Origin: Candidatus Saccharimonadota bacterium | GTDB lineage: Bacteria; Patescibacteriota; Saccharimonadia; Saccharimonadales; Saccharimonadaceae | Direction of reading: 5' to 3' | Assembly (NCBI GenBank): GCA_017420185.1 | Contig: JAFOJM010000057.1 | Coordinates: 1-32,805 of the forward strand | Length of the DNA stretch: 32,805 nucleotides | Notes under the pieces: model-generated | The model's database searches: none | What the model was told of the DNA's origin: nothing | What the model saw: only the letters and a program-made list of their open reading frames with translations | Position numbers and translations under genes: made by a program | Shown: positions 2 to 29,937 of the stretch, piece after piece | Layout: each line of letters opens with the position of its first letter | How positions within the stretch are numbered: the stretch's first letter is position 1

Positions 2-505
2 AACACTAATAACTCATTGCTTCCTGCTACCTCACCTTCATTTAGCCAAGACTTTACGAATGGCTCACATAATAGTAGTTTCGATTCCAATGTAGTTTCA
101 TATAGTAATTACTACAACTGGTACTCTGCCACAGCTGCTAACGGTACATACAGCAAATCTTCTGGTGAAGTAGCTGGCGATATATGTCCTGCTGGATGGA
201 GTTTGCCGCTAGGTAGCAGCAATAACACTTCTGGTTCATTCTACTACCTTAACCAGCGAATGGGTGACGATACATCTGCCACAGGCTCCAACAACTGGCG
301 CTCTTTCCCAAATAACTTCGTTTATTCCGGCGGCTGGTACGGTTCGTCGGCGGACTATCGTGGCGGCTACGGCGGCTATTGGTCGTCTTCTGCGTACGAT
401 ACGAACTTCGCTTACTACCTACGCTTCTACAGAAGCGGCGTGGCTCCCGCGAAGAGCGAAGTTAAGGCCTACGGGTACTCTGTACGCTGTGTAGTGTCGC
501 AGTAG
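2..505 (+). CDS. FISUMP-domain surface protein, 3' part only
   Basis: The reading frame is open to the left edge of the window with no stop, so this is the C-terminal part of a longer gene; the TTG at 17 is not a credible start. The protein has the Fibrobacter succinogenes major paralogous (FISUMP) layout: a YYNWYSATA aromatic block, then CPAGWSLP, a glycine/tyrosine-rich stretch, GYWSSSAYD and the typical end G-Y-S-V-R-C-V. These domains belong to secreted or surface proteins of unknown function in CPR and Fibrobacteres; the signal peptide would lie outside the window. Unlike the two related sequences at 17401 and 28503, the visible part is intact with a canonical C-terminus. Family call is confident, function is unknown. 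Confidence 0.8.
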   Translation, partial: NTNNSLLPATSPSFSQDFTNGSHNSSFDSNVVSYSNYYNWYSATAANGTYSKSSGEVAGDICPAGWSLPLGSSNNTSGSFYYLNQRMGDDTSATGSNNWRSFPNNFVYSGGWYGSSADYRGGYGGYWSSSAYDTNFAYYLRFYRSGVAPAKSEVKAYGYSVRCVVSQ

Positions 506-2709: not shown

Positions 2710-5700
2710 ACTCGCTCCTTAGCGCTTCTACTGGGTCTTTCTTGCTAGCGGCACGTGCAGGTATCAGCCCGCCTAGTATCGTTAAAACCACGCTAAGGAG
2801 TACTAGCAGCAAAGCTGTCCTAGGGTCTAGCGTAGCGTTCAGCGGTATGTCACCGGTAAAATGATGCAGCACCAGATTAATAATAGGAATAAGTGTATAC
2901 GACACGGCTATACCAATGATGCCGGATAGTAGCCCTATGATAAATGTTTCAGCATTAAATATCGAGGAAATATTATGCTTGCTGGCCCCCATTGCGCGCA
3001 ATATTCCAATCTCTTTTTTGCGCTCATACACAGAAATATACGTAATTACACCTATCATTATAGAACTTACCACCAAAGATATAGACACAAATGCTATTAA
3101 TACATAGCTCACCGCGTCTACTATAGTTTTTACTGACGACATCAATACGCCAGTAGTATCAGAATATTCTATCACCTTGTCATCCATATTGGCACTGCGC
3201 ATTTTTTCGTTGTATTCACTCAGGAAATCTATAAAATGCGTCTTCCCGTCAAAACTCCAAAAATAAAAATTTATCTCCGTAGGATCATTTAAGTCTTGAT
3301 ACCCCAAAGCCGACAAATTCGTAGCCAGGGTAGTCTTTTTCTTGGTAAACATCGCTGTTACTACGCGCGACAATTCATCCTCGGAAAAATTCAGCTTAAA
3401 CGCGCCTATTATTGCATTTTGGTCTACATGAAAAGCATCCGCAAAGCTACTAGTTAAATAAGTTGTGAGATTTCCGATCTTAGCCAGCACCTTTTGTTGC
3501 ATAGTCAAATTAGTCGCTGCGCCGACAAGAGTATCAAAAGTTGCGGCAATTTCAGCTTTTTTGAGATAATCATCCACAGATATCTCCTCGTGCTTTAGTT
3601 TAGCCTCCATATATATTGCCAGGTATCCTTTCAGTAGTCCATTGTATGCACTAGCAAAATTCTCCGCCGGGATGCTATAGGTCTCTTCCAAATCATTAAA
3701 ATTCTTCCCCGCTACAAATTCATCTACAAATTGTACAAGTATTTCCTGTGCTTTGTCCGGGTTCAACAAATCCATTACGCCTATTTCCCCGCTTTGTATC
3801 TTAGTTATAAATTCCGCGACCATTTCCTCGGCTAGCGCTTTAAATCTCTCTTCCAAGGTACTGCGTAGTCCGGGCATATCATTGATGCCGCTATTTATAT
3901 CTCCAGATATTTCACTCATATATTCATTAGTTTTGGAACTGACTGCATTTTGGTCTATATCCACTCCAAAAGCTCGACTAAGTGCCGCCTCATCTATTGA
4001 TACCAAATCCGAAAACTCGAAATTAAAATCATTACCTTCTTCTCCAAACTTTGTATTTGAAAAAATATCTATTTCTGGATTATCTAGCTGCCTCTGTACA
4101 ATCTCGGTTTTGGCTGATTTTTCTATTACATGCGTCACGAGTGACGGTAGATATGCTACCCCGCTGCGACTAGTTAGCATATCTGAGTTCATTACCGCTA
4201 CGCCAGTAATTTTTAGTTTTTCAGATTTGTCGTATATTTGTCGCATATACTCTGTATCACCAGTCATATCTTCATATACGTCATATTTATCATTATACTT
4301 ATATGTATCGGTCTCTGCCATCAATCTCAAATCCACATTCATCAGGTCTTCATACCCTAGCTCTAATGGCTCATTGTGAATATCGGCACTTTCTCCACTC
4401 ATAATCTTGGAGACAATTTTGTTAAGCTCATCCGTATCATGAAATCCCAGCGAGTAGGTTAGTAGCTCCGATATTTCGCCCTTATTACTTATCAGCACCA
4501 TCAATTCATCGTATTTTTCTGGATAGCGCCCTGCTAGTAGCTCCGTGTCTTCGAGCAGACTATCTCGCTCAAATTGCTGAAATACCGAAGTCATCGAAGA
4601 ATAATTCCTCAGCAAAGACGACTCCCCTACTAACGAGGTAAATAGCGTACTTGGATTCATCTTGGCTAATGCCCCAGTCGCATCCTCTGTATATATTAGT
4701 GGGTTCACGTTGTATTCGTATTCCATCATTTTGATGTCATCTTTTACCTCAGACTCATGTGTCTTAAGATACTCCGCAAAACTCGGCAAATCATTGTTGG
4801 ACACTGTGCCTAGCGTAGATGTCAATATCTGATTTTCTTTCAACTTGCCATTTCCCTGGTCGCTTGTATTGGCGCCCGTCAGACTCAGTAATATGCCAGT
4901 GAGGTCCGCTGATTCTTTTTGCAATGCGAGTGGGTACGATGTAAGAGTATCTTCTTCTATTTTATCAATATAATTTTGGAACCCAGTAGACACGGCCGAA
5001 ATCAGTGCTATGCCTATTATGCCTATGGATCCAGCCGCAGCTACCAGTATAGTTCTGGCCTTCTTCGTCAGCAAATTTTGCAAAGATAGTGCCAGCGCCG
5101 TCACAAAAGACATTTTAGTCCTCTTCTTATGGTTTGTTTTTTTCGAATCTAAATTAGCCTTTACTTTGCCATCATACGGATTAGAATCCGACGTTATTTT
5201 TCCATCTTTCAAAGTAATGATCCGCGTAGCGAATTTTTCGGCCAATTCTGGATTATGTGTCACCATTACTACTAGCTTGGTTTTAGAAATATCTTTCAAA
5301 ACATTCATTATCTGCAAGCTGGTCTCAGAGTCTAAGGCGCCAGTAGGTTCGTCTGCCAGTATTATGTCCGGGTCATTTACTAGTGCTCGCGCTATCGCTA
5401 CTCTCTGCATTTGTCCGCCAGAAAGTTGATTGGGCAGCTTATCTATATGTTCTTTTAGTCCCACATCTATTAAGGCTTGCTTTGCGCGGCGTATTGCCTC
5501 ACGTTTGGAAATGCCAGATAAAGTCAATGCTAGCTTTACATTGTTGAGCACTGTTTGGTGCGGTATTAGATTGTAACTCTGGAATACAAAGCCTATTCTA
5601 TGATTACGATAGCTATCCCAATCTTTGTCGTGAAATCTCTTGGTAGATTTTTCATTGACAGTCAAATCACCCGCAGTATATTGATCTAGTCCACCAACTA

Positions 5701-17063: not shown

Positions 17064-17093
17064 TTAACACAAACGTTAAAAGTGTGCTATACT
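17064..17093 (+). promoter_or_regulatory. promoter of the structured RNA
   Basis: TTAACA (17064-17069), 18-bp spacer, extended -10 TGCTATACT (17085-17093). The predicted start, about 17100, coincides with the first paired base of the RNA closing stem. Confidence 0.6.
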
Positions 17094-17098
17094 TAAAT

Positions 17099-17244
17099 TG
17101 CAACAGTTTGATAGTAAAAGTACTAGCACATTTTATAATTATATTTCCAACAAAATATTGGCACCGTAAGGTAGCTGATTGTCGGAACTATACATAATAC
17201 TAGTACGATTATCAAGCTGTTGCACCCCTGACGGTGCCATTTTT
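17099..17244 (+). ncRNA. candidate structured RNA with a 6S-like rod fold
   Basis: Positions 17099-17115 pair continuously with 17208-17224 (17 bp, two G-U). After a small internal loop, GTACTAG (17120-17126) pairs with CTAGTAC (17200-17206). Next is a large A/T-rich bubble of 18 nt against 12 nt. Then TTCCAACA (17145-17152) pairs with TGTCGGAA (17180-17187, one mismatch). The apical stem (17158-17178) ends in a GUAA tetraloop closed by ACC/GGU. A short hairpin GCACC/GGTGC (17222-17237) and TTTTT (17240-17244) follow. One rod with paired ends and a central bubble is the plan of 6S RNA; that identity is inferred from shape only. The alternative pairing of 17160-17167 with 17231-17238 also allows an attenuator reading. 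Confidence 0.5.
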
Positions 17245-17285
17245 GTTAATTAGAACCTTCATGTCAAGGATGGCGCCGTCAGGGG
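17225..17285. repeat. 16-bp inverted repeat
   Basis: CCCCTGACGGTGCCAT (17225-17240) and ATGGCGCCGTCAGGGG (17270-17285) pair fully apart from one G-T position, around a 29-nt loop. The left arm includes the terminator-like hairpin of the structured RNA, so the two structures exclude each other. Confidence 0.65.
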
Positions 17286-17310
17286 AAATAAAAGCAAATT
17301 AACAAGTATT

Positions 17311-17400
17311 GTTACGTCATTTATTGTTATCGAGGAGCATTAAGCCAAAATCCACCTTTAGGTGCGGTTTTGGCGCCGAGGGGGCGAAGCTTCGATATAT
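17311..17400 (+). repeat. repeat family 2, copy A
   Basis: It aligns with the element at 21052 from GTTACGTCATT to CTTCGATATAT. Its stem is GCCAAAA (17344-17350) with TTTTGGC (17368-17374), topped by CACC/GGTG; outer arms ATCGA and TCGAT pair too. It abuts the remnant of a FISUMP gene that begins at 17401. Confidence 0.55.
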
Positions 17401-17975
17401 CAGACTTAGTACATGATAATACCGCTACAGAAGTACCTACAACCAACAAATTCAGCAGTATATCTACAACAGCAAGCCTAGAGCCTAGTCGCCTGTCAAG
17501 CAGCTCATTCAGATTGTAATGCTCATAATCACGCCGGCTACTATTACAGCTGGTCTGCTGCGGTGGCTAGCAACGATACCAATACTGTAGCTTTAAAGAC
17601 TCAATACAATAACGCCCCAGACTCTGTCTGCCCTGCCGGCTGGCGTCTCCCCACCGGGCTAGATAGTGCCAACACTGCTGCAAGTCGTGAATGGAATACT
17701 CTCTTGGTAGCAGAAGGCATTATGACTGACCCTACAGACTATGGCTATGCAGAAGGCGGTCTTGATAATATACGTATCTCGCCTTTATGGCTAGCTCGGT
17801 TTGACTACGTCAACTTGGCACACTACTCTCTGACGGCACCTACGGTTACTATCGGTCTAGCACGGTCTACGATAGTAAATCTGCGTACGCGTTACGCATC
17901 CGTTCTGTCGACCTCTACCCAACCATCACATATGGCAAGGACAGAGGATGTTCGGTCCGTTGCCTCGTAAAATAA
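17401..17975 (+). pseudogene. decayed FISUMP-domain gene
   Basis: Three frames must be joined to rebuild a FISUMP protein. The first (17403-17518) reads ...TTASLEPSRLSSSSFRL and runs into TAA. The second (from about 17519) reads CNAHNHAGYYYSW, CPAGWRLPTG and ISPLWLARFDYVN. The third (17814-17975) gives LGTLLSDGTYGYYRSSTVYD and the canonical end C-S-V-R-C-L. The simplest explanation is a 2-nt loss near 17517 and a 1-nt loss near 17814. The N-terminus with any signal peptide is missing; repeat family 2 abuts the break. The continuous frame 17563-17970 is therefore not a normal protein. Its end is 1 bp from the convergent metallopeptidase gene. Confidence 0.8.
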
Positions 17976-28502: not shown

Positions 28503-28919
28503 TCAGGCAGCAGATAGAAAAACGAGATTCCTAGTGGGAGTTCTAGCGGGGCTAATAGTACTGGAAGAGAAGTCCAATCCATATGTAATGCTGTTACCTA
28601 CAACCGTACCAGACCAATAGTAACCCCGGCTACCAGTATAGCCAAGCATACTGCCGCAAACAACGCCGCCAGACTGAATCAAACACAAGGACACAGTGCG
28701 AATCTTCTTAAAGCCATCGACCATATAATATGGATCATCGACAGATTTACTTATGATATTCTCAGCTACTAGCATAGAACCAAATTCGCTATCAGTAATG
28801 CCACCTTCGTTGCCTATAATCTTTGGTAATCTCCACCCGGCAGGACAAATTGACCCTTCTGCATTGCGGAATTGTTCTGTTAGGCTAGATGTATCATTAT
28901 TTGCCACCGTAGCTTCCAA
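28503..28919 (-). pseudogene. FISUMP-domain fragment
   Basis: 138 aa in frame, beginning only in the middle of a FISUMP domain (EATVANNDTSS, then GSICPAGWRLPK and GYYWSGTVVG). Upstream codons still give HYVLEAT, which matches the usual YYxWxxAT block, but the frame is then closed by TGA and no signal peptide or N-terminal part is present. The canonical ending G-x-S-V-R-C is also lost; a shifted frame gives GISFFYLLPD instead. TTG at 28919 is the only possible start and has no ribosome binding site. It is a remnant or silent cassette rather than a working gene. Confidence 0.65.
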
Positions 28920-28970: not shown

Positions 28971-28992
28971 AAAAATGGCACCGCAAGGGTGC
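28971..28992 (-). terminator. terminator-like hairpin shared with the RNA at 17222
   Basis: On the minus strand GCACC, a 5-nt loop, GGTGC, then CATTTTT. The block TTGCACCC-T-T-G-CGGTGCCATTTTT is nearly the same as the one at 17221-17244. Both precede FISUMP remnants. Confidence 0.5.
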
Positions 28993-29044
28993 AAAACGCT
29001 CCTTGCGACTAACATTATGCTTGAGCCTAGCTATACCGAAATAC

Positions 29045-29072
29045 TTGTCTAATCCCCAAAAAATGCTAGTAT
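29045..29072 (+). promoter_or_regulatory. promoter of the 29080 gene, predicted leaderless
   Basis: TTGTCT (29045-29050), 16-bp spacer, extended -10 TGCTAGTAT (29064-29072), 7 nt before the ATG at 29080. Confidence 0.55.
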
Positions 29073-29079
29073 ATTATAT

Positions 29080-29937
29080 ATGGATACAAATTCTTTTAGC
29101 ATTATGCCCATGAGCCAGGAAATATCCCTTACACCAGGTGAGACATATGCCGGCACTATTACTATAGCCAATCCAGCATCTTCTACTAGCGATTTATCCT
29201 ATACCGCAGCTATTTCGCCATACGGAGTACTGGGTGCAGATTATAGCGTAGATTTACTATCCGAAAGCAGCCGCACTGAAATGATTAATTGGATCACTTT
29301 GCACAATGCAGCAGGCACTATAACTCCTAACGGTACCGCCGAAGTGCGCTTTACTATCGATGTGCCCAAGACAGCAACACCCGGTGGGCAATACGCCGCT
29401 ATCAAGGTTATCAAAAATACCGCCGACGCTGCTAGTGGCGAGCTTTCTATTAATAATATTTACGAGGTTGCCAGTATTATCTATGGCAATGTAGCTGGCG
29501 AAGTTGTGCACGATAGCACGGTTACATCGCAGTTTATCCCGAATTTTACCACTACACCAGAGTTCACTTCTACCGCCACTGCTGAAAATCACGGCACCGT
29601 CCACGAAGATGCGCTAGTAAATTTTACTATCACCAATGCATTTAATGGCAGTACTATCTATCCACATTCATCTTCGGATACCGGTATCAACGAAGTAATT
29701 ATGCCAGACACCACCCGCGAGTTATCTTACACGTTCAAGGACATGCCAGCCCTAGGCCCCATCAACATCACGCAGACCATAGATTATGGCGGCCAAGCAT
29801 ACACCCAGTCTCAGACATTATTCATCTGCCCAGTATGGTTTATGGTAATTATGGCTACACTTTTACTTAGCACGGCTGCGCTTATTGTTGCACATATCGC
29901 AAAATCCCGCCACCGCAAGCAAACCTCCAAATTATAG
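29080..29937 (+). CDS. DUF916/WxL-interacting-like surface protein
   Basis: 285 aa. The N-terminal region (ISLTPGETYAGTITIANPAS) and the block FTIDVPKTATPGGQYAAI match the immunoglobulin-like DUF916 domain of proteins that bind peptidoglycan or WxL proteins in Gram-positives. A second beta-sandwich follows, then a TM at about 251-272 and a basic tail, so the bulk should lie outside. However, no N-terminal signal peptide can be seen, and the promoter leaves no room for a longer start. Either it is inserted by its C-terminal TM in an unusual way or the annotation of its start misses something. It is convergent with nrdG, 8 bp apart. Confidence 0.72.
   Translation: MDTNSFSIMPMSQEISLTPGETYAGTITIANPASSTSDLSYTAAISPYGVLGADYSVDLLSESSRTEMINWITLHNAAGTITPNGTAEVRFTIDVPKTATPGGQYAAIKVIKNTADAASGELSINNIYEVASIIYGNVAGEVVHDSTVTSQFIPNFTTTPEFTSTATAENHGTVHEDALVNFTITNAFNGSTIYPHSSSDTGINEVIMPDTTRELSYTFKDMPALGPINITQTIDYGGQAYTQSQTLFICPVWFMVIMATLLLSTAALIVAHIAKSRHRKQTSKL

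Follow-up and report, generated by a model that had tools for sequence, protein, structure and literature searches.

The question raised by this locus is which kind of RNA is encoded at positions 17064-17285 of the window, the 32,805-nucleotide stretch of Candidatus Saccharimonadota DNA analysed here, which is contig C57 of a genome assembled into 59 contigs (694 kb). According to the initial annotation, the region holds an undescribed structured RNA, either a 6S-like one or an attenuator with mutually exclusive folds. The description of the letters was borne out on re-reading. As judged from its sequence, the region is an extended -10 promoter followed by a hairpin of about 125 nt from the predicted start site and by a terminator, all on the forward strand. 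The promoter (17064-17093) consists of the -35 box TTAACA (17064-17069), an 18-nt spacer and the extended -10 box TGCTATACT (17085-17093), and ranks best among the 5 promoter-like sites found between 16900 and 17600. Its predicted start, at about 17099, is the base of the closing stem, as had been claimed. The paralogue on contig C54 has the same promoter, and TGnTAnnnT (consensus TGnTATAAT) lies at a constant distance from the stem in 83 of 94 family members.

The minimum free energy (MFE) fold of the RNA 17098-17250 has -46.9 kcal/mol (z -5.3), and none of 200 shuffled sequences was equally stable. The 17-bp closing stem P1 (17099-17115 with 17208-17224), the inner 7-bp stem (17120-17126 with 17200-17206) and the GUAA loop described originally are all present in it. 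The A/T-rich bubble survives in part: it is partly paired in this fold, and its U-rich 5' bulge ATTTTATAAT (17130-17139) is conserved, each column of its UUUUA (alignment columns 55-59) being kept in 75-92% of 99 members. The apical-loop strand GGCACCGTAAGG (17160-17171), referred to as R1, is complementary to a downstream strand, R2 (17227-17239), which forms the loop and 3' strand of an intrinsic terminator. Arm A (GCACC, 17222-17226) is the 5' side of that terminator and shares GCA with the end of P1, so that the terminator-like hairpin at 17222-17237 and its T run overlap the closing stem as annotated. In the U run (17240-17244), T is found in 98-99 of the 99 members at each position. Further downstream, the second R2 complement, R3 (17265-17285), forms an inverted repeat with 17225-17245. 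The annotation had placed a 16-bp repeat on the same arm; the repeat is there, with 21 bp in the MFE fold, and forms a second hairpin when the RNA 17095-17300 is folded (-83.7 kcal/mol, z -10.7). The minus strand folds as well (z -4.3), so the fold alone gives no strand.

A lack of covariation in relatives had been named as grounds for refutation, and P1 does covary. In a MAFFT alignment of 16 elements, made without fitting to structure, 97.7% of the P1 cells are paired, both sides have changed in 13 of 17 pairs, and the covariation score is 0.778, compared with 0.237 for shuffled and at most 0.168 for slid arms; among 99 distinct rows of a model-fitted alignment, 97.1% are paired and both sides have changed in 16 of 17 pairs, all these values being without phylogeny correction. 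Among 95 distinct elements, P1 contains 133 G-U cells and 8 A-C cells. Such a G-U excess is not to be expected of a DNA hairpin or of an RNA from the minus strand; therefore, the plus-strand RNA is the folded and selected form. By this comparative evidence, the structured RNA family is real and its strand is settled. Outside R1, R2 with the terminator, and the U-rich bulge, the letters of the hairpin are unconserved in the 99-member alignment; in the inner stem, each paralogue has its own letters and keeps the hairpin. GUUA, AUGA or ACGA takes the place of the apical tetraloop in relatives, and a GNRA tetraloop was rejected as a conserved feature. A search of the hairpin alignment for a conserved ligand-binding core, as in a riboswitch, found none.

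At the gathering cut-off, Rfam recognizes only two tRNAs in the whole window, and nothing credible matches the region of the element, where only chance matches occur (MicX, 28 bits on the minus strand, and animal miRNAs). The 6S RNA model RF00013 matches neither the window at gathering nor the region at E values up to 10, and nothing exceeds its cut-off in 198 genomes of the order. Candidates below its threshold are at other places and fail to match the model of the element, the best of them reaching 43.9 bits against a cut-off of 46.4. This best candidate (1501-1649 of locus L183, genome G329) is followed by a tRNA-like sequence. It and the other sub-threshold matches are probable divergent 6S RNAs of Saccharibacteria, a lineage that the Rfam model seems to miss. 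A search of the open-licence literature found no description of an RNA like the present element. The family is thus undescribed in the sense of being absent from Rfam 15 and from that literature, and the claim of an undescribed structured RNA can be upheld, given its covariation, promoter, terminator and lack of an Rfam match.

Related pieces were detected in contigs C54, C27 and C4 by a DNA search of the same genome. The paralogues share one plan, namely promoter, hairpin, a conserved apical R1 (GGCACCGTRAGG) and a conserved tail, GCACCCC..CGGTGCC-ATTTTT, which is the terminator with R2 as its 3' strand; the stem letters differ. A pattern of R1 followed by GCACCCC was positive in 5 of 60 genomes of relatives, with at most 6 copies each, and the reversed control pattern had 0 matches. 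A covariance model of the element was built from the 16 aligned sequences. Of 147 genomes sampled from the window's genus, Saccharibacteria of the ruminant gut, 64 have a match, many of them with 10 to at least 21 copies, and the remaining 83 have none. The highest count, about 39 dispersed copies with near-identical R1 and R2, was seen in genome G079; there, a short R2 pattern has 48 sites, about 39 in sense orientation, and most of the remainder fit the complement of R1. In a pattern scan of the genomes of 84,980 species, 76 stretches were obtained, many with isolate names from cattle, sheep or goat gut, and all titled Saccharibacteria except one metagenome-assembled genome (MAG) from rabbit. 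This exception (CANQHN010000002.1), titled Oscillospiraceae, carries a full element and a downstream ORF of Saccharibacteria type, and is probably mis-labelled or mis-binned. Scanning the viral collection IMG/VR with the R1...R2 pattern gave 0 matches; hence there is no sign of phage origin. Assemblies break where leaders and gene starts are nearly identical, and fragmented MAGs therefore probably show fewer copies than their genomes contain. Three contigs of genome G005 (C4, C22 and C24) all stop about 118 bp past the element.

Applied to the wider order, the same covariance model gives weak, mostly single matches, which represent a diverged relative of identical plan. This type has a closing stem beginning GUC(U)UAA, an R1 such as CGGCACCGCA or GGGCAACUCGCG, and the terminator GACACC-NNNN-GGUGUC-SUUUUU. 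With a second model, it was detected in 51 of 295 genomes of the order (some of these matches being genus-type copies), distributed over 30 of 143 genera and 10 families, mostly in 1-2 copies. Outside the order, a phylum-wide sample yielded one weak match. Close behind the diverged type, most loci have an ORF, which often encodes a small membrane protein.

Behind the genus copies there is mostly a gene for a FISUMP surface protein. Among the 58 copies with at least 1.5 kb of downstream sequence, 56 are followed within 450 nt by the start of an ORF of at least 200 aa (median distance 66 nt). At all 19 of the G079 loci that were read, the gene encodes one of a set of paralogues with a hydrophobic segment at the N-terminus, and a conserved (S/P)(I/V/L)RC(I/V/L)A(R/K) motif ends most of the G079 proteins. 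PF09603 (Fib_succ_major, FISUMP) is matched by 8 of the 9 downstream proteins that were tested, with E values of 2e-7 to 1e-4, all below the Pfam cut-off. Conversely, G079 has 38 PF09603 matches, and for 29 of them an R2 on the same strand lies 0.3-2.3 kb upstream; several of the other 9 are at contig ends. FISUMP genes also occur in genomes without the element. Two members of the same genus, G004 (36 PF09603 matches) and G002 (16), have many such genes and no element match. Exceptions among the elements include copies before glyS or a relA-like gene, or without a gene on the right strand.

In the window itself, the RNA is intact and the gene behind it is broken. A tblastn search with the intact C27 paralogue locates a FISUMP surface-protein gene without its N-terminus at 17340-17970 (+), with pieces in different frames (17340-17480 and 17524-17655); PF09603 matches it weakly (G000:C57:17488-17664). 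A second, degraded copy lies on the minus strand at 28971-29110, with R2, terminator and U run intact and the hairpin mostly lost, and is followed by a truncated FISUMP-like fragment (28503-28919, minus strand). Judging from these remains, the system has decayed in the window. The sequence past the U run of the degraded copy resembles the C4 and C5 copies. A separate repeated element of about 130-170 bp, with inverted arms such as TTACGTTATTCACT, is inserted in several leaders (window 17300-17400; L006, about 240-380, minus strand; L007, about 2880-3020; and the leaders of L074 and L082), and looks like a small non-autonomous repeat.

In many of the 25 cross-genome pairs with similar hairpins, identity is about 0.9-0.99 in the upstream flank and 0.94-1.0 in the hairpin, with the gene at background level. 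BLAST homology stops at the U run (0) or at +4, +30, +50 or +416, and in the pair L066/L106 it resumes at the end of the gene. It can be seen that the hairpin stays at its locus and the gene behind it is exchanged, which implies that hairpins belong to loci and that cassettes move between them. The variable breakpoints fit ordinary recombination within shared leaders. Within a genome, copies with near-identical leaders have only average hairpin likeness, 0.69-0.70 in G079, G127 and G124 (duplicate entries confound the corresponding G087 value).

Two strands can pair with R2 and exclude each other in doing so: the local arm A, which gives the terminator, and the apical-loop strand R1. In the window, the pairing of 17160-17167 with 17231-17238 had been described over 8 bp; it is longer than that, extending to 11 of 12 positions. 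At variable positions of the genus alignment, R1 and R2 are 98.1% paired, compared with 95.3% (maximum 96.6%) after shuffling of partners (0 of 1000), and for 42 distinct combinations from the whole order the corresponding values are 93.7% and 73.6% (maximum 81%), again without phylogeny correction. Because R1 had been picked as the best complement in the order-wide test, it was repeated with each shuffled R2 free to find its best site; the own R2 paired at 11.06 of 12 positions, compared with a permuted mean of 9.56 and maximum of 10.11 in 5000 permutations. The median energy of the R1 x R2 duplex is -25.9 kcal/mol, versus -8.8 with R1 shuffled. When R1:R2 is enforced in a nested fold, its stability falls short of that of the long hairpin by a median 9.9 kcal/mol; therefore, the two helices of R2 are alternatives rather than parts of one nested fold, and R1:R2 could form as a pseudoknot, in a dimer or transiently during transcription. 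For the helix with arm A, two distant members are the clearest cases: L250 has GACAACC / GGGCAACU / GGUUGUCC and L256 has GACGACC / GGGCGACU / GGUCGUCC, so that arm A and R2 change together (GACAACC/GGUUGUC versus GACGACC/GGUCGUC). With A:R2 judged from these changes, two mutually exclusive helices on one terminator strand both appear to be conserved, and the anatomy proposed for an attenuator is supported to that extent.

Most leaders with a surface gene behind them also carry R3. The R2 x leader duplex has a median of -24.6 kcal/mol, compared with -13.5 shuffled, and z is below -3 in 57 of 87 leaders. Copies without R3 include those before glyS and the relA-like gene and the single copies of genomes G035 and G061. 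By eye, the bases past the U run can pair with the Shine-Dalgarno or start region in several leaders. In L064-L082, another hairpin is often possible in the leader 3' of the U run, with the Shine-Dalgarno region in its 3' strand, which suggests an additional translational layer.

These observations are best explained by a cis-acting structured leader RNA, of attenuator type, of Saccharibacteria surface-protein genes, a reading to which a probability of about 60% is assigned. Every copy comes with an extended -10 promoter of its own, a start at the base of the long hairpin and an intrinsic terminator (A:R2 with the U run), and the order of promoter, leader, terminator and same-strand gene is found across the family, the gene being broken in the window. 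Since the genus copies almost always precede a swappable surface-protein gene, the element probably decides whether that gene is read. Most transcripts would end at the U run as an RNA of about 145 nt. When A:R2 is not formed, with A held in the closing stem or R2 captured by R1, transcription would read through into the gene, and in the read-through mRNA R2 would then be locked by R3. That attenuation takes place, and which state would be ON, we infer from the sequences. Ordinary antiterminators hold the 5' side of a terminator, whereas R1 pairs with the 3' side, adjoining the U run, and R1:R2 could itself terminate. This is the weakest point of the attenuator reading. The 9.9 kcal/mol deficit of the nested R1:R2 fold, the 83 of 147 genus genomes without a match and the copies before glyS, before a relA-like gene or without a gene on the right strand also count against it.

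Among the alternatives, action in trans is the least unlikely, though doubtful. The element might be a stand-alone small RNA or else a leader that acts in trans once terminated, with the R2 tail pairing with R3 in surface-gene mRNAs or the R1 loop pairing with R2 of other copies. A strong promoter and terminator of its own, the strong complementarity of R2 to the leaders and the existence of copies without R3 before unrelated genes would suit such an RNA, and cross-pairing is possible among the roughly 39 G079 copies that share near-identical R1 and R2. A precedent for a trans-acting product is the metZ SAM-II riboswitch of S. meliloti, predicted to end as the sRNA RZ (PMC9373788). Nevertheless, same-strand surface genes lie behind nearly all genus copies, and genomes with the diverged type hold few perfect R1 complements besides the element's own R2. 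For the diverged type, R1 as a trans-acting targeting loop was rejected on this count.

A more far-reaching form of cross-pairing, suggested by the interchangeability of R1, R2 and R3 between the roughly 39 dispersed copies, is speculative and unlikely. A terminated leader would base-pair with the leader of another copy, either nascent or read-through, and the choice of the surface cassette to be expressed would be made in this way. If true, an episymbiont would choose among exchangeable surface proteins by means of RNA. The Patescibacteria in cultivation live as obligate episymbionts on other bacteria, and their host recognition is described as largely unknown (PMC12206443).

It is improbable that the element is a passive 5' part of the mRNA, a stability element or start-site cap joined to a terminator, with alternative pairings that regulate nothing. 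Structured 5' ends protect mRNA, and the long hairpin is far more stable than its alternative; however, a passive hairpin needs neither R1:R2 covariation nor a conserved terminator before a gene. Far less credible is a DNA hairpin serving as a recombination site for surface-gene cassettes, like an integron attC site. Genes are exchanged immediately behind the hairpin, and the stems vary with the structure kept, but the G-U excess in P1 marks selection on the plus-strand RNA, the promoter and U run are conserved, the breakpoints are those expected of ordinary recombination in shared leaders, and diverged, mostly single copies occur in other families of the order; a DNA cruciform or recombination site was rejected for its conflict with the strand asymmetry. 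The 6S reading, an RNA polymerase decoy of this lineage, is hardly tenable in spite of the long hairpin, A/T-rich bulge and similar length, as 6S RNA usually has one or two housekeeping copies without a link to a gene family, whereas the element has no RF00013 match, is present in up to about 39 copies 5' of FISUMP surface-protein genes, differs from the order's own sub-threshold 6S candidates, and conserves its loop and terminator instead of a promoter-mimicking bubble.

The element belongs to an RNA family supported by covariation, not in Rfam 15, and distributed across 10 families within a single order. Its role in the window's genus has become that of leader to surface-protein genes that are dispersed and recombine and that number up to about 40 in a genome of about 0.8 Mb, which raises a testable question: is a surface protein chosen through an RNA leader in these cells?

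Compared with known systems, the element resembles 6S RNA (RF00013) in its long hairpin with an A/T-rich internal bulge, its length of about 150 nt and its own promoter; it differs in lacking a model match, in being multicopy and gene-linked, and in its conserved loop and terminator, and relatives have other candidate 6S RNAs. With integron attC sites it shares stem letters that vary within a kept hairpin and exchanged cassettes that adjoin it, whereas RNA-strand selection, a conserved promoter and U run and variable breakpoints set it apart, and no core sites were noted by eye. As in antigenic-variation systems in general, a fixed expression signal precedes an interchangeable surface gene; here, a structured RNA with a terminator lies between promoter and cassette, and one-at-a-time expression is not claimed. 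The closest likeness in design is to attenuators and riboswitch platforms such as the trp leader and SAM riboswitches, which also have their own promoter, carry an intrinsic terminator ahead of the gene and can form an alternative helix with one of the terminator strands. In contrast to these, the element has no conserved ligand pocket and stands in up to about 39 copies per genome before one protein family, and the strand that competes for the terminator comes from an apical loop and takes the 3' side as its partner instead of the 5' side, an unusual design for a switch.
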